DNA from: Candidatus Azobacteroides sp.
Lineage (GTDB): Bacteria > Bacteroidota > Bacteroidia > Bacteroidales > WRGA01
DNA length: 36,952 nt
NCBI GenBank assembly: GCA_009787405.1
Contig: WRGA01000104.1
Coordinates: forward strand, 1-36,952
Direction: 5' to 3'
Positions 4,785 through 32,358 of this stretch are shown piece by piece. Position 1 is the first letter of the stretch. Every line of letters begins with the position of its first letter. Under the pieces are notes generated by a model, which saw only the letters and a program-made list of their open reading frames with translations, had not been told where the DNA came from and searched no databases. Both the position numbers and the translations under genes were made by a program.

Positions 4785-5768
4785 TTACGGCGTTGTTTTC
4801 AACACGGTATTGCGCAACAGAATTTCCGTGCACAACAGGATAAAGGCAATAATCGCAAATAGGGCGTATTCTTCGTGTCGTTTGCTGTAATTCTGCACAT
4901 TGATTTTGGTCTTCTCCATTTCGTCGATTTCGGCATAGATTTCTTTCAATTTGGAGGTATTCGTGGCCCGGAAATAGGTTCCGTCGGTGGTGTTTGCTAT
5001 TTTTTTCAAGGTTTCTTCGTCGATTTCCACCGGTACTTTAACGTAATCGGTTCCGTAGGCCATCTGAACAGGAACCAGAGCTTCCCCTTTTGTTCCGACG
5101 CCGATTGTATAAACATGGATGCCGAATGTTTCGGCGATTTCGGCAGCCGTTATCGGAGCGATGTCTCCGCGGTTATTGGAACCGTCGGTCAGTAATATGA
5201 TGACTTTCGATTTGGCCTGACTGTCTTTCAACCGGCTTACGGCATTGGCCAGTCCCAACCCGATGGCTGTACCGTCTTCGATCATGCCGCAGCGGATGTC
5301 TTTCAACAGATTCAATAATACGGCGTGATCGGTGGTGAGAGGACATTGAGTAAAACTTTCACCTGCGAAAACCACCAATCCGATATTGTCGTTCGGACGA
5401 CTGTTGATGAATGTTGCCGCCACCGATTTGGCGGCTTCGATCCGGTTGGGTTGTAAATCTTGGGCCAACATGCTCGATGAAATGTCCATCGCCATCATAA
5501 TGTCGATTCCTTCGGTGGAAGACTTCTGCCAATGATTGGACGATTGCAGACGTGCCAAAATAATGATGATCAGCGCTAAAACTATCATTCGTAAAATAAA
5601 CGGGATATGCCTGAACCGGACTTTCCATGTCGGTTTTTTTTGATCGAAAGCTCTCGTGGAGGATATTTGCAGTGATGCCTGAGCTTTACTCCGCTTCCAA
5701 ATATACCAAATGATGATCGGAATCAGTCCCGATAAAAGATAGAGATATGTGGGATGTGCAAAAGTCAT
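4785..5768 (-). CDS. batA: BatA, von Willebrand factor A membrane protein
   Basis: 327 residues: two N-terminal membrane segments (about 9-24 and 54-73), a periplasmic VWA domain and a C-terminal membrane segment (about 301-319). The metal-ion adhesion site is complete: DISSS at 95-99, the threonine in DGTAIG (167) and aspartate of LLTDGSNN (195). Bat proteins work with a MoxR ATPase in envelope stress tolerance or assembly of other proteins; the exact substrate is unknown. It lies 15 bases after the DUF4381-like gene and is the last gene of the operon. In Bacteroidales relatives batB, batC, batD and batE usually follow; here repeat DNA follows instead. I chose BatA over BatB because of the IMMAMDISSSMLAQDL motif, length and position. 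Confidence 0.88.
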   Translation of the reverse strand: MTFAHPTYLYLLSGLIPIIIWYIWKRSKAQASLQISSTRAFDQKKPTWKVRFRHIPFILRMIVLALIIIILARLQSSNHWQKSSTEGIDIMMAMDISSSMLAQDLQPNRIEAAKSVAATFINSRPNDNIGLVVFAGESFTQCPLTTDHAVLLNLLKDIRCGMIEDGTAIGLGLANAVSRLKDSQAKSKVIILLTDGSNNRGDIAPITAAEIAETFGIHVYTIGVGTKGEALVPVQMAYGTDYVKVPVEIDEETLKKIANTTDGTYFRATNTSKLKEIYAEIDEMEKTKINVQNYSKRHEEYALFAIIAFILLCTEILLRNTVLKTTP

Positions 5769-5783
5769 TTTTTTTCGATTCGA

Positions 5784-6782
5784 TTATTGCATCGGCTGTT
5801 TCCCGGATGCTGGATTGTTTTCTTGTTGAGAATTTTTTTGGTCGTTTTTTTCCGGTACCTCTTCGGGCTGCGTTTGACTGATGAATAAACGGGAATTGAC
5901 ATAGCTCAAGTCGTTTTCGTTCGGCAACGGCGTGAATTTTGCAAACTTGGCCAAATCCGCCAATTTCAACACCTGCTTTAAATTTTCGGATGCCGATTCT
6001 GCTTCATGATAAGCTTGGACGGATGATAAAATTTCGTCCGACGTCATTTCCTGTGCGGAAATTCCGAATCGTTCGAATAAATAGGTTCGCAAAACATCGG
6101 TCAGCTGGGTATGATATTCTTTGTTCAATCCTTGCTGCCAAAGATTCTTTTGTTTGATTTCTTCCAAAGCCCGGAGAGCTTTGACATGCGGCGGCAGTTC
6201 CGTTTTTTTCTTGAAGATCAGTTTTGCCTTTTTGGGTTTGAAAAACAAAAAGTAAATCAATACCGCCAAAATAACCAATATGACCCAAACAATGACCAAT
6301 ATATAAATGTAATCCGCCAACACAAATCGGGGGCTCAGGACGGGTTTGATGTCGTAAAAAGCTTTTGATACAGTATCCACTTTCATGGTGTTGACTTTCA
6401 GCGACAATGAATTGGAATAGATGGTGTCGTTTTGAGAGACTACGGCAAAAGGCGGAATATAATATAGCCCTTCGTCAAAACTTGTGACGGAATAATTAAC
6501 ATTGATTTGTTCCTGATTATTGCCGAATTTTACCGTATCGAGTTTGGGAACGTCCACAATTTCAAGGCCTTGAATGATCGAGTCGCTCAACAACGGAATG
6601 GTGATATTGTTCGTCAAAGCTTTGGAGATTTCCAACCGGATTTTGGCTTGCGAGCCGACCATAATGGATATGGAGTCGATGCTTGCTTTTACGGTGGGCG
6701 ATTGCCCGAAAAGCAATGCCGCCGGCATCAACAAAAATAACAAGAAAAAAACGATGGATCTGATTCTATTCAATAATATCAT
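5784..6782 (-). CDS. DUF4381-like / BatD-like membrane protein of the bat operon
   Basis: 332 residues. A signal peptide (about 1-26, ending ALLFGQ) leads an immunoglobulin-like periplasmic part resembling the BatD N-terminus, then one membrane segment (about 157-181), then a cytoplasmic helical part (LPPHVKALRALEEIKQ...YHTQLTDVLRTYL) typical of DUF4381 proteins that sit between DUF58 and BatA genes. The tail is rich in Q, N, E and K and probably disordered. It is 23 bases from the upstream DUF58 gene, so cotranscription is likely. It probably forms part of the MoxR-Bat membrane complex; no enzymatic motif is visible. Confidence 0.8.
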   Translation of the reverse strand: MILLNRIRSIVFFLLFLLMPAALLFGQSPTVKASIDSISIMVGSQAKIRLEISKALTNNITIPLLSDSIIQGLEIVDVPKLDTVKFGNNQEQINVNYSVTSFDEGLYYIPPFAVVSQNDTIYSNSLSLKVNTMKVDTVSKAFYDIKPVLSPRFVLADYIYILVIVWVILVILAVLIYFLFFKPKKAKLIFKKKTELPPHVKALRALEEIKQKNLWQQGLNKEYHTQLTDVLRTYLFERFGISAQEMTSDEILSSVQAYHEAESASENLKQVLKLADLAKFAKFTPLPNENDLSYVNSRLFISQTQPEEVPEKNDQKNSQQENNPASGKQPMQ

Positions 6783-6805
6783 ATTAACTTTTAATTCTTA
6801 ATTCA

Positions 6806-7678
6806 TCAGACTCTTTTGGCAAACAAAAGCATCAACGCCTTTACATAATCTTCGTTGGTTTTTACCGATACAGCATCCACTTTGCTTCGAATAAATGCGT
6901 CATTTGTTTTGAGGTTGAGCGCCGTCCAATTCTCTTCGAATCTTTTTCGTTCCTTGGCCGAAGAAGTATCAATCCACTGTTCTTTGCCCGTTTCCGCATC
7001 TTTTAATTTAATCAGTCCGATGGACGGGATTTTCGTATCCCGTTCGTCGTAAACCTGAACGGCTGCCACATCGTGTTTTTTGTTGGCAATGGTCAGTGCA
7101 TCTTTAAAATTTTCGGGGTCGATAAAATCGGAGATCAAAAAAGCCGTGCAACGTTTTTTGATGGCGTTGGTCAGGTATTTCAATACTTGAGAAATATTGG
7201 TGGCTTTGTCTTGCGGTTCGAAATCGATCAGTTCCCGGATGATGTATAAAATGTGTTTCCGCCCTTTTTGAGGCGGAATAAACTTTTCTATTTTATCCGA
7301 AAAAAAGATGACGCCGATTTTGTCGTTGTTTAAAATGGCTGAAAAGGCCAATGTGGCGGCAATCTCGGTCATCATGTTTTGTTTTGTCATTTCTTTCGAA
7401 CCGAACTCCCGGCTTCCCGAAACGTCGATCAGAAGCATTACCGTTAATTCGCGTTCTTCCTCGAATACTTTAATGTACGGACGATTATAGTGGGCCGTCA
7501 CATTCCAGTCGATGTCCCGGACATCATCTCCGAATTCATATTCCCGGACTTCGGAAAAAGCCATACCTCTTCCTTTGAACGCAGAATGGTATTGTCCGGC
7601 AAAAATATTTTTGGACAATCCTCTGGTTTTGATTTCGATTTGACGAACTTTTTTTAATAATTCACCGGTTGTTGCCAC
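6806..7678 (-). CDS. DUF58 family protein (VWA-like), MoxR partner
   Basis: 290 residues with no signal or membrane segment. The N-terminal part shows the DUF58 signature GRGMAFSEVREYEFGDDVRD...IDWNVTAHYNRPYIKVFEEERE, followed by a VWA-like fold with DVSGS at 85-89 as a metal site. DUF58 proteins are almost always encoded beside moxR and are thought to act as adaptors of the MoxR ATPase. Here one unrelated gene and a repeat lie between the two. Confidence 0.88.
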   Translation of the reverse strand: MATTGELLKKVRQIEIKTRGLSKNIFAGQYHSAFKGRGMAFSEVREYEFGDDVRDIDWNVTAHYNRPYIKVFEEERELTVMLLIDVSGSREFGSKEMTKQNMMTEIAATLAFSAILNNDKIGVIFFSDKIEKFIPPQKGRKHILYIIRELIDFEPQDKATNISQVLKYLTNAIKKRCTAFLISDFIDPENFKDALTIANKKHDVAAVQVYDERDTKIPSIGLIKLKDAETGKEQWIDTSSAKERKRFEENWTALNLKTNDAFIRSKVDAVSVKTNEDYVKALMLLFAKRV

Positions 7679-7741
7679 AAGGTATTTTTAATTTCACGAT
7701 TTATAATTTGCAATTTATAATTTTCGGAGTTGATCTTGTCA

Positions 7742-8251
7742 TCAATCTTCATCGTTGTAACATACGGTTATTTCGGTGACTATTCTGTCGGTTGTTTTAA
7801 ACAAAATATAGGTTCCGGCATCATCGTCTTTTAATGCAATACCTTGAACTTTATCTTTGGGTACGCCGCTGTTGCTGTCATCATACCAATTCTGAATGTT
7901 GATGCTGTATTTGTCGTAGATGCCGAGGATCTGCATTTTATTGCTCCCGATACCGACTCCGCTTTTTGTTTTTAAGGGGGTATCGGATGATTTAATGCTT
8001 GATAACACTAAATCTTCTTCTTCTCCCACCTGAAATGACAGCGTATAAACGGAGCCTTTGTATGTGATTTTAACCTCTGAGTCATCGTTTAGAATAATCG
8101 GTTTATTAATGATGGTTTCGATTTCCGCTTTTTTGGCGCCGAGCTTGAACGGGCCGATTCTCATGGTGGAAATGTAATCAGAACCGGATTGTTGAGCTTG
8201 GCCTGATGCACAAAAAAGAAGCAGGATCAATATCGGATATATTTTTTTCAT
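7742..8251 (-). CDS. Exported protein of unknown function inside the moxR-bat operon
   Basis: 169 residues with a clear signal peptide (MKKIYPILILLLFCASGQA, cleavage near 20). The mature part has KLGAKKAEIETIINKP and VGIGSNKMQILGIYDKY, a twice-repeated pattern of the kind seen in small beta-rich periplasmic proteins, and ends in acidic residues. I do not recognise a family. It lies between moxR and the DUF58 gene, with 188 bases and a dispersed repeat on the moxR side and 63 bases on the other. Those genes are normally adjacent, so this gene looks like an insertion into the operon. Confidence 0.7.
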   Translation of the reverse strand: MKKIYPILILLLFCASGQAQQSGSDYISTMRIGPFKLGAKKAEIETIINKPIILNDDSEVKITYKGSVYTLSFQVGEEEDLVLSSIKSSDTPLKTKSGVGIGSNKMQILGIYDKYSINIQNWYDDSNSGVPKDKVQGIALKDDDAGTYILFKTTDRIVTEITVCYNDED

Positions 8252-8286
8252 TAATTCGGTTTTTTCAAATCATTATTATTAAGCAT

Positions 8287-8397
8287 GCCGTAAAAAATAA
8301 TTTATATTTTAAACGCAAAGCCGGAAAAATGCGAAGTTTAAAATCTTTGTGACTTTGTGTTTTTGCGTTTAAAATAGTAGATATTAAATTCTTCCAT
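8287..8397 (+). repeat. Dispersed hairpin repeat, copy 2
   Basis: It runs from GCCGTAAAAAATAATTTATA through the paired core GCGAAGTTTAAAATCTTTGTG to TAGATATTAAATTCTTCC. It lies in the gap between moxR and the unknown exported gene, so it would be transcribed within the operon and could fold into a stem. Confidence 0.8.
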
Positions 8398-8439
8398 CTC
8401 TATATTATTTTGTCTCTTGATGTTTGTGCATATCGTTAT

Positions 8440-9435
8440 TTACGGAACTTCCACTTTATTCAAAATTTCGCTGATGATTTCTTCGGAAGTCATTTCATTC
8501 GCTTCTGCGTCGTAGCTCAATCCGATCCGGTGGCGCATAACATCATGACAAATGGCCCGCACGTCTTCCGGAATCACGTACCCCCGACGTTTGATGAACG
8601 CATAAGCTCTTGCCGCCAATGCCAGATTGATGGAAGCACGAGGAGAGGCTCCGAACGAAATCATGCTTTTCAGGTTCGCTAATCCGTGATCTTGGGGATA
8701 ACGAGTCGAAAACACAATGTCGACAATGTATTTTTCGATTTTTTCGTCGAGGTATACTTCTTGTACGACTTTACGGGCATCCAAAATTTCTTCGGCTTTT
8801 AAAACCGGCTTAAGCACTTTCTTTTCTCCGGTGATATTTTGACGGATGATTTGTTTTTCTTCTTCTTTCTTGGGATACCCGATAATCACTTTCAACATGA
8901 AACGGTCGACTTGTGCTTCGGGCAATGCATACGTTCCTTCCTGCTCGATCGGGTTTTGTGTTGCCATCACCAAAAACGGATCTTGCAGCTTGTAGGTATT
9001 GTCCCCGATGGTTACCTGACGTTCCTGCATCCCTTCCAACAAGGCGCTCTGAACTTTTGCCGGGGCACGGTTTATTTCATCCGCCAATATAAAATTGGCG
9101 AAAATAGGCCCTTTTTTGATCAAAAATTCCTCTGTTTTCTGACTGTAGATCATGGTGCCGACAACGTCTGCCGGCAATAAGTCGGGCGTAAATTGGATTC
9201 GGCTGTATTTGGCATCCACCAAAGATGCCAATGTCTTTATGGCTAATGTTTTAGCTAATCCCGGAACTCCTTCCAGCAGAATATGACCATCGGAAAGCAA
9301 CCCGATTAAAAGGGATTCTATTAAATGTTTTTGGCCTACGATTACCTGATCCATGCCCATTGTAATCATATTCAGGAACGAACTCTTACTTTCAATCCGT
9401 TCGGTTAACTCTCGAAGATCTACCGTTTGACTCAT
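8440..9435 (-). CDS. moxR: MoxR-type AAA+ ATPase
   Basis: 331 residues, full length for the family. Walker A is GVPGLAKT (56-63), Walker B FILADE (115-120) followed by INRAPAKVQSALLEGMQE, and sensor 1 is ATQNP (158-162); the C-terminal lid domain includes ISFGASPRASINLALAARA. MoxR proteins are chaperone-like ATPases that act with VWA proteins, here DUF58 and BatA. It is the first gene of the operon, with a promoter-like TACTTTTG box 46 bases upstream. Confidence 0.93.
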   Translation of the reverse strand: MSQTVDLRELTERIESKSSFLNMITMGMDQVIVGQKHLIESLLIGLLSDGHILLEGVPGLAKTLAIKTLASLVDAKYSRIQFTPDLLPADVVGTMIYSQKTEEFLIKKGPIFANFILADEINRAPAKVQSALLEGMQERQVTIGDNTYKLQDPFLVMATQNPIEQEGTYALPEAQVDRFMLKVIIGYPKKEEEKQIIRQNITGEKKVLKPVLKAEEILDARKVVQEVYLDEKIEKYIVDIVFSTRYPQDHGLANLKSMISFGASPRASINLALAARAYAFIKRRGYVIPEDVRAICHDVMRHRIGLSYDAEANEMTSEEIISEILNKVEVP

Positions 9436-9634: not shown

Positions 9635-11566
9635 TTACTTGACCTTTTCTGTCAGCATGGCATCTCCTTTTCTTTTGGCTAATTCTATGGCTTCCGGGCT
9701 TTGAATATCAAATCCGTAAGCATCGGGATTCGGAATGATCAGCTGAATTCCCGAATCTAATTTTATCGGATCGGGAATCAAACTTTTATTGGCTTCGTAT
9801 AAATATATCCAAAAGATCTTGTTCCCGTAATATTTTTCCGACAAGGTAAACAGATCTACTCCCGGTTTAATGTCTTCGACGCCCAAAACTTTGTCGACGT
9901 CGTTATTTTCTGTGTCATTCGGGGATGATTCCGGTTTTGAGTGAGACATTTCGGAACTGACTTGAATGACCTCTTTTTTATCCGAATTTACTTTGATGAC
10001 GACAATCATTAATAGAACAATGAATGAGATGGCCGAAATAAATAAGATTCGCTTTTTCTTGTTTTTTATTTTTACGTCCGTGTCGGAGGAATCTTCATTT
10101 TCCGGAACCAATAACCGGTTTTCTTCTTTTTTTTCGGATTCGGATTTTTCCGGATCATTGGCCGGACTTTCCGTAGAATTTGTATCGGTACCGGATTCAA
10201 CTACCGGTGTTACGGGTTCCCGGTAGGCATTTTTCGGCATGTTTCCGGATGTTTCCTCTTCTTCTTTCAGATAATAGGAGTCAACCGTCGACATGATTGC
10301 GTCGATGTCGATGGGATTAAAATTGACGAATGCCGGTGGAACGTGGGTTTCTTCCCGGTCAGATTCGATTTCTTTTTCATCGTTCGGAATTTGATGTTCC
10401 GGCGTTTGTTGCTCCGGTGTTTGATCAAAATGGTCACGACCATCCTCTATGGCTTCCTCTGTGTCGACTGCGGTCATGATTGCCTCAATATCGATATTGA
10501 TGTCTGAAATGGCGGCTTCCGTGATATTGTCTTCTGAAACGGATGCTCTCTCTGCGATATAATGCTCTATTTCCGTCGTGATTTCAGGAATGTTTTCATC
10601 TGTTGTTTCCGGCTGTTCTTGCTGTTCCGGCAGAACGTATTGATTTTCCGGCTGTATATTTTCAACGGTAATAACAGCGGCTGTTTCCTGTTCATCGGTT
10701 CCGGGTTCCGGTTGATTTTCGGAATTGTCATTATCGTTGTCATTGATCGATACCGGAAATGTTTCGACTGTTTCTTCAATTATTTCTTCAATATGCTCGA
10801 CTGCATTGCACGGAGTCGGCAGGTTGTTGGCTGTATTTTCCGGTTCTTCGACAAGTGTTTCTTGTGTTTTTTCGAGAAGATCGGATGATGCAGAAACGTT
10901 TATCGTGTCTTTGGGGGATGTTTGGATGGTTTTTACGATTTTTTCCAAATCCTCGAAGATTTCTTTCGGAGAAGGTTGTTTCTTTTCCGGCAATTTTTTG
11001 ATTCCGACGATAATCGGTTCAAAAAAAGAAAATGCCTTATTGATTTCGTCCCGGAATGATTTTTCCGGAAGGAAAATGATCCGGTATCTGTTGCGGTATG
11101 TTGTGGATGCCGGGTGAAAAGAAAATTCGGGTTTCAGTTGTTTCTTAAATGTACCCAATCCGTTTAATGTGCAAAAAGAATCTGTTTCCAGTAATGTCGA
11201 GATTTCCTTGATCAAAAAGTCTGAAAAAAGTTGGGCGGACGCTTCATCCAAACCGGCCTGAATGGTGATTAATGTTTTCAAATCGCGAATGCGGGTATCC
11301 GGGATGATTCCGATTGAAGAAGAATGGATGAATGTTATATTGGGAACTAATTTGGGCGGGATAAGGACCTTGACAAGTTTATCCGGATAAATCAGTATTT
11401 GTTCCATCCTTTTTTCCGTTCCGAATAAAGCAATGTCATTCACCAAAATGGTTTCACCCAAAAGAAGTCTTTGCTTGATCACCGAAATAGTGGCTTCGAT
11501 GATTTGAGACGTCATCTTTTCGGATAAATTCAGTTTTCCGGCTAAATGAGATATCATCTTTTTCAT
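9635..11566 (-). CDS. HU-like DNA-binding protein with membrane anchor and LysM domain
   Basis: 643 residues. Residues about 1-88 form an HU/IHF-like domain (ISHLAGKLNLSEKMTSQIIE, then a VNDIALFGTEKR strand region), and about 93-180 a second HU-like domain (CTLNGLGTFKKQLKP). An acidic, Pro/Gln/Glu-rich linker of about 300 residues follows, then one membrane segment (506-526, after KNKKKR) and a LysM-like domain (about 562-612: VDLFTLSEKYYGNKIFWIYLY...IQLIIPNP). The positive-inside rule puts the HU part in the cytoplasm and LysM in the periplasm, so it could link nucleoid and peptidoglycan. A short motif, IDIEAIMTAVD/IDIDAIMSTVD, occurs twice in the linker (358-368, 419-429). It lies 76 bases downstream of rimO. 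The architecture resembles the HU-CCDC81 type proteins of Bacteroidota. Confidence 0.85.
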   Translation of the reverse strand: MKKMISHLAGKLNLSEKMTSQIIEATISVIKQRLLLGETILVNDIALFGTEKRMEQILIYPDKLVKVLIPPKLVPNITFIHSSSIGIIPDTRIRDLKTLITIQAGLDEASAQLFSDFLIKEISTLLETDSFCTLNGLGTFKKQLKPEFSFHPASTTYRNRYRIIFLPEKSFRDEINKAFSFFEPIIVGIKKLPEKKQPSPKEIFEDLEKIVKTIQTSPKDTINVSASSDLLEKTQETLVEEPENTANNLPTPCNAVEHIEEIIEETVETFPVSINDNDNDNSENQPEPGTDEQETAAVITVENIQPENQYVLPEQQEQPETTDENIPEITTEIEHYIAERASVSEDNITEAAISDINIDIEAIMTAVDTEEAIEDGRDHFDQTPEQQTPEHQIPNDEKEIESDREETHVPPAFVNFNPIDIDAIMSTVDSYYLKEEEETSGNMPKNAYREPVTPVVESGTDTNSTESPANDPEKSESEKKEENRLLVPENEDSSDTDVKIKNKKKRILFISAISFIVLLMIVVIKVNSDKKEVIQVSSEMSHSKPESSPNDTENNDVDKVLGVEDIKPGVDLFTLSEKYYGNKIFWIYLYEANKSLIPDPIKLDSGIQLIIPNPDAYGFDIQSPEAIELAKRKGDAMLTEKVK

Positions 11567-11642: not shown

Positions 11643-12965
11643 TCAAGAAATTGCAACATCAGAATATGTTTTCGATACTTCTCCGAATAAATCGAATCCT
11701 TGGGTTCCAGTTATGCGTACCGGTCGGAAATCTCCGGGAATCAGTCGTTGATCTTTTTGGATCAAAACTTCGGGATCGACTTCCGGAGAATCATATTCGG
11801 TTCGTCCGATATAATAATCCTTTTCTTCTCTGTCGATAATGGTTTTAAAGGTTTGTCCGATTTTCCGGCCGGCGATTTCCCCGGCGATTTCTTCCTGTAT
11901 CGACATTATTTCGTCTAACCGGCGTTGTTTTTCTTCGCTCGGAATCAGATCTTGATAATGAATGTTGGAATATGTTCCTTCTTCATCTGAATATACAAAA
12001 CCGCCCAATCGTTCAAAACGAATGTCTCTTGCAAATTGTTTTAATTCGTCGAAGTCTTTTTCCGTTTCACCCGGATGCCCGACCATCAGGGTTGTGCGCA
12101 AATGAATGTCCGGTATGTCTTTCCTGATTTTTTCGATTAACCCGTATGTTTCTTTTCGGGTGATGTTCCGCCGCATCAACTTCAACATGTTGTTGCTGAT
12201 GTGTTGAAAGGCAATGTCCAAATAGTTGCAAACGTTATCCCGCTCCCGCATGACCCGCAGTAAATCGTCCGGGAAAAGGGCCGGGTAAGCATAATGTAAC
12301 CTGATCCACGCCAATCCGTTTATATCCGATAATTTTTCCACCAATTCGGGCAATTGTTTTTTTTGGGTGGTGTCCAATCCGTAAAATGTGAGATCTTGCG
12401 CAATCAGTTGAATTTCTTTGACTCCTTTTTCAACCAGTATTTTGGCTTCATTCACAATATCCTGCATCGGTCGGGAGATATGCTTTCCCGTGATGATGGG
12501 GATTGCGCAATATGAACAGGTACGACTGCATCCTTCCGATATCTTGACATAAGCATAATGCGGAGGAGTTGTCAATTCTCTTTCCAAGCGTAAGGAAGCA
12601 TGATATGATTTTCCCAAATCAGTGATTAATCCGTTCCAGTCGAATTTTCCGTAAAATTTGTCGACTTCGGGAATTTCTTCCTGCAATTCTTTGAGATAGC
12701 GCTCCGACAAACATCCCATGACAAACAGTTTTTTCAACCGCTTCTTTTTCTTTGCATCGACAAATTGCAGGATGGTGTTGACGGATTCTTCTTTGGCATC
12801 GCCGATAAAACCGCAAGTATTTATGACGACAATTTCTCCTTCTACTTTGTCGGAATCGTGTTTTACCGTATATCCGGATGCCGTTAACTGACGTATGAGC
12901 CTTTCTGAATCCACGATGTTTTTCGAACACCCCAGCGTGATGATGTCAATTCTGTTTTTTTTCAT
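11643..12965 (-). CDS. rimO: Ribosomal protein S12 methylthiotransferase RimO
   Basis: 440 residues, the normal size. The N-terminal UPF0004 domain has the three cysteines of the auxiliary cluster (C13 in LGCSKN, C51 in NTCGFIG, C85 in MGCLSERY). The radical-SAM motif C-x3-C-x2-C is C146-C150-C153 in EGCSRTCSYCAIP, and a C-terminal TRAM domain ends the protein. RimO adds a methylthio group to a conserved aspartate of ribosomal protein S12. The LGCSKN(I/V)VDSE signature separates RimO from MiaB. Confidence 0.95.
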   Translation of the reverse strand: MKKNRIDIITLGCSKNIVDSERLIRQLTASGYTVKHDSDKVEGEIVVINTCGFIGDAKEESVNTILQFVDAKKKKRLKKLFVMGCLSERYLKELQEEIPEVDKFYGKFDWNGLITDLGKSYHASLRLERELTTPPHYAYVKISEGCSRTCSYCAIPIITGKHISRPMQDIVNEAKILVEKGVKEIQLIAQDLTFYGLDTTQKKQLPELVEKLSDINGLAWIRLHYAYPALFPDDLLRVMRERDNVCNYLDIAFQHISNNMLKLMRRNITRKETYGLIEKIRKDIPDIHLRTTLMVGHPGETEKDFDELKQFARDIRFERLGGFVYSDEEGTYSNIHYQDLIPSEEKQRRLDEIMSIQEEIAGEIAGRKIGQTFKTIIDREEKDYYIGRTEYDSPEVDPEVLIQKDQRLIPGDFRPVRITGTQGFDLFGEVSKTYSDVAIS

Positions 12966-31989: not shown

Positions 31990-32358
31990 TTACAACGGAA
32001 TTTTCAGCTTTTGTCCCGGGTGTATTACATTCGGATCTTTCAGAATGTCTTTGTTGGCATCGAATATCTTTTGCCAAGTCATTCCCGGATATTTGCCGGC
32101 AATCTTGCTTAAGCTGTCTCCCGATTTTACCTCATAAATTTCTTCGCCCCCGGGTACTGCGTCAATATTTAATACTAAATCGCCTGATCTCATTTCAGGA
32201 TCGATTCCTTCATAAATAGTCCACAATTGGTCTTTTACCGCTGCCGTCGATACTCCTGAAACAGTGAGTACATTATTGCTTTCGGAAACATTCAAATTTT
32301 GGACATTGGATGTTTTTGCATAAGCAATCAGCTTTGCATATTTATCTTGCAGACCCAT
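31990..32358 (-). CDS. BON-LysM protein, Kbp (YgaU)-like
   Basis: 122 residues with no signal peptide. The N-terminal 65 residues form a BON-like fold (NVLTVSGVSTAAVKDQLW), and the C-terminus is a LysM domain (YEVKSGDSLSKIAGKYPG...NPGQ-type HPGQKLKIPL). E. coli Kbp has the same order and is a cytoplasmic potassium-binding protein, though somewhat longer. It starts 2 bases after the BON lipoprotein stop, so the two are translationally coupled. Potassium binding is an inference from architecture. Confidence 0.8.
   Translation of the reverse strand: MGLQDKYAKLIAYAKTSNVQNLNVSESNNVLTVSGVSTAAVKDQLWTIYEGIDPEMRSGDLVLNIDAVPGGEEIYEVKSGDSLSKIAGKYPGMTWQKIFDANKDILKDPNVIHPGQKLKIPL

Follow-up and report, generated by a model that had tools for sequence, protein, structure and literature searches.

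Membrane-anchored HU proteins in Bacteroidota

HU works as a dimer. In Bacteroidota the placement of the nucleoid with respect to the cell envelope is poorly understood. The closest known design to the protein described here is the HU-CCDC81-TM-SPOR protein of Bacteroidota (PF18174 and PF18175), which likewise starts with two HU-type domains and continues through a hydrophobic segment to a C-terminal domain of the peptidoglycan-binding type. A role in chromosome partition was reportedly predicted for this group by Burroughs, Aravind and others in about 2017, in a paper that may also mention LysM forms. PF18174 was found in 352 of 392 Bacteroidales genomes, and the architecture HU-CCDC81-TM-SPOR was seen in three scanned genomes. 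A search of the open literature for the HU-TM-LysM architecture or for bacterial HU-CCDC81 proteins returned no relevant paper.

Closely similar to the protein studied here are two split pairs from Bacteroides/Parabacteroides (WP_008778384.1 and WP_009275120.1; WP_007758232.1 and WP_022275144.1), whose second protein is also built from HU, a hydrophobic segment and a LysM-type tail. They share the locus order ftsY-rimO-hu-hu-AAA ATPase-DUF58-bat, but are encoded by two genes and have the canonical DNA-contact residues. Both proteins of the pair are annotated in P. distasonis and B. finegoldii just as 'HU family DNA-binding protein'. In the engineered single-chain IHF (2iie, 2iif) two HU/IHF lobes are arranged in one chain as well; however, this protein is artificial and soluble, its DNA contacts are intact and it has neither a membrane nor a wall part. 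The nearest solved relative of the LysM tail is Kbp (YgaU), a BON-LysM protein without membrane helix and without HU, which binds potassium and not the wall.

Compared with these systems, the protein encoded in the window (the whole stretch of 36,952 nucleotides that was analysed, from a Candidatus Azobacteroides sp.) is the LysM version of a membrane-anchored HU pair. It differs from HU-CCDC81-TM-SPOR in that its HU domains are of the PF00216 type, its C-terminal domain is LysM and not SPOR, it has a split two-gene relative and it lies in another locus. An assignment to HU-CCDC81 was rejected, as PF18175 scored 18.6 bits against a cut-off of 35 and PF18174 was not reported in the Pfam search. 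Across the window genome no match to PF18174 or PF18175 above cut-off was found. A congener, G001, has a PF18174 match and carries both the HU-CCDC81 and the HU-LysM kind; the assembly of the window genome is about 91% complete, and the gene may be missing from it.

The HU-LysM gene and its surroundings

The open reading frame starts with ATG on the minus strand. Its parts and its conserved neighbours are as follows.

9635..11566, minus strand: whole gene, HU1-HU2-acidic linker-TM-LysM, 643 aa (ORF call, Pfam, relatives' profiles)
11303..11566, minus strand: HU1, residues 1-88 (PF00216, AlphaFold, residue comparison)
10997..11296, minus strand: HU2, residues 91-190 (relatives' profile, AlphaFold, residue comparison)
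10049..10996, minus strand: acidic linker, cytoplasmic, residues 191-506 (net charge -56; basic cluster right before the membrane)
9992..10048, minus strand: sole transmembrane segment, residues 507-525 (hydropathy and flanking charge)
9899..9991, minus strand: short periplasmic linker, residues 526-556 (hydropathy/charge analysis)
9725..9898, minus strand: LysM, residues 557-614, signature YYGNKIFWIYLYEANK (NCBIfam Kbp, family profile against PDB, fold)
9638..9724, minus strand: conserved C-terminal extension with terminal helix, residues 615-643 (relatives and AlphaFold)
11643..12965, minus strand: rimO, conserved upstream neighbour (TIGR01125; synteny)
8440..9435, minus strand: MoxR-type AAA ATPase, conserved downstream neighbour (Pfam; synteny)

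Beyond moxR the window contains DUF58, BatD-like and BatA-like genes. In this stretch (4785-9435, minus strand) a secreted-looking protein of 169 aa without family match (7742-8251) is wedged between the moxR and the DUF58 gene. Elsewhere in the window (31990-32358, minus strand) a protein of 122 aa carries a standard LysM (PF01476, E 5e-15) in an architecture unrelated to the HU-LysM protein.

Between two species of the window genus, identity amounts to 45% in HU1, 39% in HU2, 31% in the linker and 54% in LysM. Since the order of the domains is also kept in other Bacteroidales families, the combination of HU, membrane segment and LysM is not due to chance. The architecture HU-HU-linker-TM-LysM is near certain for the window protein.

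Both N-terminal domains have the HU fold

The first-pass annotation had read two HU-like domains at the N-terminus and had named structure prediction of both ends as a check. The Pfam search recovered two PF00216 stretches, with an E of 2e-10 and 41.2 bits (cut-off 22.4 bits), and AlphaFold gave the HU/IHF fold for both domains, with a mean pLDDT of 90.1 and a pTM of 0.82 for residues 1-195. The protein thus belongs to the HU/IHF superfamily of the PF00216 type. Profiles built from the relatives placed HU1 at 1-85 (3e-30) and HU2 at 91-190 (4e-36), although the window sequence was itself part of the seed alignments, so that these placements are no independent evidence.

In the fold search each half of the model matched HU/IHF structures, and the engineered single-chain IHF 2iie matched residues 1-179 with Z 11.6 and rmsd 3.1 A over 127 aligned residues. 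The model also aligned end to end with chains of doublet microtubules. The top structural match was chain 9io5_T of the gliding ATPase of Mycoplasma mobile (Z 13.1). In the paper on this ATPase, GliD is described as a b/delta fusion, and the words 'HU protein' and 'histone' are absent from it (PMC11864180).

An alignment that mixed rows with HU1 only and rows with HU2 only put HU2 onto HU1. Therefore, the input for fold prediction was limited to fused rows and HU2 rows, and as a result the HU1 model rests on six fused rows. The alignments A2 and A3 include one reference row of E. coli HU-beta, which makes the matches of A2 to HU structures in the PDB partly circular, and these were not counted as evidence; the Pfam match and the fold were.

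As HU acts in pairs and both HU domains are present in one chain, the window chain carries the equivalent of a dimer. The match to single-chain IHF speaks for a pseudo-dimer and not for two separate beads on a string, and this arrangement of HU1 and HU2 is quite likely.

The window gene is the fused form of a two-gene system

To place the window gene among its relatives, eight loci from Tannerella, Parabacteroides, Paludibacter and others and a further 60 from Bacteroidales genomes were examined. Of the latter, 52 encode a LysM protein with one HU and have a separate HU gene immediately upstream, and all of the 52 unfused loci are split in this way. The split form consists of a soluble HU of ~95 aa followed by HU-linker-TM-LysM, and the two genes are adjacent and mostly overlapping. 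In 48 of the 52 unfused loci the hu1 ORF was called at -11 to +14 bp upstream; in the remaining four a frame coding for HU can be seen just upstream, missed because only ATG starts were called. The pair is often preceded by ftsY-rimO and followed by moxR-DUF58-bat. The window gene belongs to this Bacteroidales pair, with HU2, acidic linker, membrane segment and LysM in the rimO-moxR locus, and has HU1 fused to it. Both HU domains are joined in one chain in three genomes each of the window genus and of the family f79, so that the six fused sequences form two clusters of relatives. The window protein is therefore no isolated case but belongs to a conserved system of two genes, here fused into one. 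Judged from these sequences, a soluble HU and an HU-TM-LysM protein most likely formed the ancestral unit, and the window gene would be the fusion of the two.

When adjacent genes become fused, this is classically taken as a sign that their products work jointly. The fusion of HU1 to HU2-TM-LysM in some lineages implies that the split proteins work as a heterodimer. The moxR tree separates the window family f1 from f79, and a single origin of the fusion was found in 0% of 200 bootstrap trees, but the AU test gave p = 0.086; with a concatenate of four genes a single origin was obtained in 35% (p = 0.40). Taken together, these results are compatible with one fusion event as well as with two.

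With the profile of the LysM tail, matches of E <1e-15 were confined to Bacteroidales among the sampled genomes, and outside the order 1e-12 at best was reached in 296 genomes across the phylum. Within the order the HU2 profile shows a clear gap between ~60 genomes with E <1e-18 and generic short HU proteins. Nearly all matches above this gap lie in long frames of 311-726 residues, and the fused and most divergent members lie below it.

DNA-contact residues of the HU pair

Nine positions, chosen as DNA contacts on the basis of HU-DNA structures, were scored in E. coli HU numbering (53, 55, 58, 62, 63, 66, 67, 80 and 86). In the split hu1 proteins a median of 8/9 of these residues is retained, and PF00216 scores 88 bits with hu1 of P. 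distasonis and of B. finegoldii. In HU1 of the window protein only R55 and P63 are kept (2/9), and the other fused proteins have 5/9 (G001) and 3/9 (G002) in the window genus and 4, 3 and 2 of 9 in f79. The hydrophobic core was scored over 22 columns, of which 20-21 are kept in the window genus, 18-19 in f79 and a median of 21 in the unfused proteins. Comparison of fused with unfused proteins by Mann-Whitney test gave p 1.4e-4 for the DNA contacts and 0.09 for the core, values which are only indicative as the sequences are related. Two unfused hu1 proteins (L069 and L113) also have just 2/9 contact residues, and loss of the DNA face is therefore not specific to the fusion.

The arm of HU1 in the window protein has its full length and retains Pro61, and the net charge of HU1 is +4, whereas the split hu1 proteins have +5 at the median. 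The beta-arm of HU2 is ~4 residues shorter and is modelled with low confidence (residues ~141-160). A shorter HU2 arm was seen in all six fused proteins, with a greater loss in f79 than in the window protein, and the intercalating proline is present in HU2 of the split form in 2 of 52 cases. Basic beta-arms with DNA-contact residues and the intercalating proline are found in most of the split relatives but not in the window protein, for which we claim the HU fold and not a canonical DNA-binding HU. As the contacts of HU1 are mostly lost and the arm of HU2 is short, binding of the window copy to the nucleoid is uncertain, and a canonical grip on DNA appears doubtful from its residues.

Linker, topology and the LysM tail

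The acidic linker, put at about 300 residues in the first-pass annotation, spans 316 residues from HU2 to the membrane segment. In LysM-bearing relatives it measures between 35 and 431 residues and is nearly always acidic. A single hydrophobic segment is present in the window protein (507-525, mean KD 2.88), as in 58 of 62 LysM-bearing proteins. The annotation had also described this segment as basic on its N-side, which agrees with 6 K/R in the preceding 15 residues and 2 after it; by this charge bias the N-terminus is predicted to lie inside. Neither of the two outcomes that the annotation had named as refuting its reading, a missing HU fold and an outside N-terminus, was thus seen in the computations. 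Among the 58 proteins with a single segment, the N-side is richer in K/R in 43, the C-side in 13, and 2 are tied.

Evidence on the location of the tail comes from OmpA-family proteins of three genomes, in which beta-barrel and OmpA domains are followed by the LysM tail of the HU protein.

L064:3756-5384, L112:3579-5252 and L119:3590-5167, all minus strand: OmpA-family outer-membrane proteins with a ~80-residue LysM tail

A signal sequence is evident in at least the L064 protein. Because the tail ends secreted proteins, it belongs outside the inner membrane, and a periplasmic LysM is very likely for the window protein. The tail shared by OmpA-family and HU proteins is, by sequence, a swappable module of putative wall-binding type.

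The LysM-like domain had likewise been recognised in the first-pass annotation. In the Pfam search the window protein did not reach E 1 with LysM (PF01476), which matched only 6 of 41 related tails at E 0.01 or better. However, NCBIfam Kbp matched residues 563-613 (E 2.8e-4), and a profile of the 41 tails run against the PDB found Kbp 7pvc (E 9.8e-10) and several LysM chains. AlphaFold modelled residues 541-643 (103 residues) with pLDDT 86, and with ~89-95 across most of LysM. The model has the beta-alpha-alpha-beta order of LysM (strand 20-25, helices 32-40 and 43-52, strand 68-72 of the tail model) and superimposes on 7pvc with rmsd 1.4 A over 56 columns; several LysM chains also match by fold. 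The tail thus has a predicted LysM fold of a divergent subfamily, and its presence on OmpA-family proteins hints indirectly at peptidoglycan binding. In the window protein a conserved helix after LysM forms the C-terminus. This helix is absent in f53 (L116, L117) and in Bacteroides finegoldii (L154:5279-6538, plus strand), where LysM is the end of the protein.

A further protein of 628 aa (L087:2654-4537, plus strand) combines an HU-like N-terminus, a ~370-residue coil rich in E/K, one membrane segment and the LysM tail found on the HU and OmpA-family proteins. Its N-terminus gave a weak HU-HIG match (E 0.003), and the protein appears to represent a third type of membrane-anchored HU protein.

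A candidate tether between nucleoid and wall

The best reading of the family, as judged from its sequences, is a tether between nucleoid and wall, for which the canonical HU partner gene and the occurrence of the LysM tail on secreted OmpA proteins argue. By computation, HU1 and HU2 fold together in the cytoplasm as a single-chain HU/IHF-like pair, from which a long, acidic and flexible linker leads through one membrane helix to LysM and the conserved extra helix at the far end. The HU subunits of the split form would heterodimerize and hold DNA beside the inner membrane, LysM would hold peptidoglycan and the acidic linker would serve as a spacer of variable length, so that nucleoid DNA would be anchored to the wall. 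The window copy would have kept the tether with a weaker or altered grip on DNA, given the loss of most of its DNA-contact residues. The span from nucleoid to peptidoglycan proposed in the first-pass annotation is thus well motivated for the family and less so for the copy on which it was based; the coupling of chromosome position to wall growth, also suggested there, would be a putative role. That HU-CCDC81-TM-SPOR follows the same logic speaks for a tether, whereas the presence of HU pairs in solved assemblies without DNA role, the doublet microtubules, and the potassium-binding nearest solved LysM speak against it. On balance we moderately favour the tether as the function of the family; for the window copy the case is evenly poised at best.

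In the fused lineage the HU pair might instead have lost its grip on DNA and dock a cytoplasmic protein, with LysM anchoring this partner to the wall. The selective loss of DNA contacts with a preserved core, the shortened HU2 arm and the match of doublet-microtubule chains over the whole length would fit such a change; however, the charge of HU1 is nearly that of split hu1, Pro61 and the full HU1 arm are retained, equally low contact scores occur in two unfused proteins and the fused sequences represent just two clusters. We hold this explanation to be the less likely one for the window copy, but a serious rival. Two further explanations concern the periplasmic end, and we consider both improbable. 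LysM could read the state of the wall and alter the action of the HU pair on DNA, making the protein a membrane-bound regulator and not a structural tether. A DNA-binding-type domain inside is indeed joined by one helix to a wall-binding-type domain outside, next to the envelope-related moxR/bat genes, but acidic linkers of such length and variability transmit signals poorly and HU of the split form has no sequence-specific reading head. Alternatively, the tail could bind a ligand other than peptidoglycan, and the protein would be a membrane-bound HU pair whose periplasmic domain serves as a sensor or in adhesion. The relationship to Kbp and the few tails recognised by Pfam LysM are in line with this, but the position of the tail behind an OmpA domain is a peptidoglycan-associated setting, and several solved LysM chains match the tail by fold.

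As a tether, the HU-LysM family is a concrete candidate for a link between nucleoid and envelope that has both ends on one polypeptide, and its natural split form predicts a heterodimer. The gut commensals P. distasonis and B. finegoldii carry relatives which are labelled generically in databases. The fused lineage offers a natural comparison for HU pairs that may be turning from DNA binders into protein docks, a shift proposed for CCDC81 as well. More speculatively, and with little confidence in the whole, Bacteroidales may have, besides HU-CCDC81-SPOR, a dedicated two-component tether between nucleoid and peptidoglycan, in which a soluble HU pairs with an HU anchored to the wall and whose fused HU pairs would have been repurposed from gripping DNA to gripping protein.
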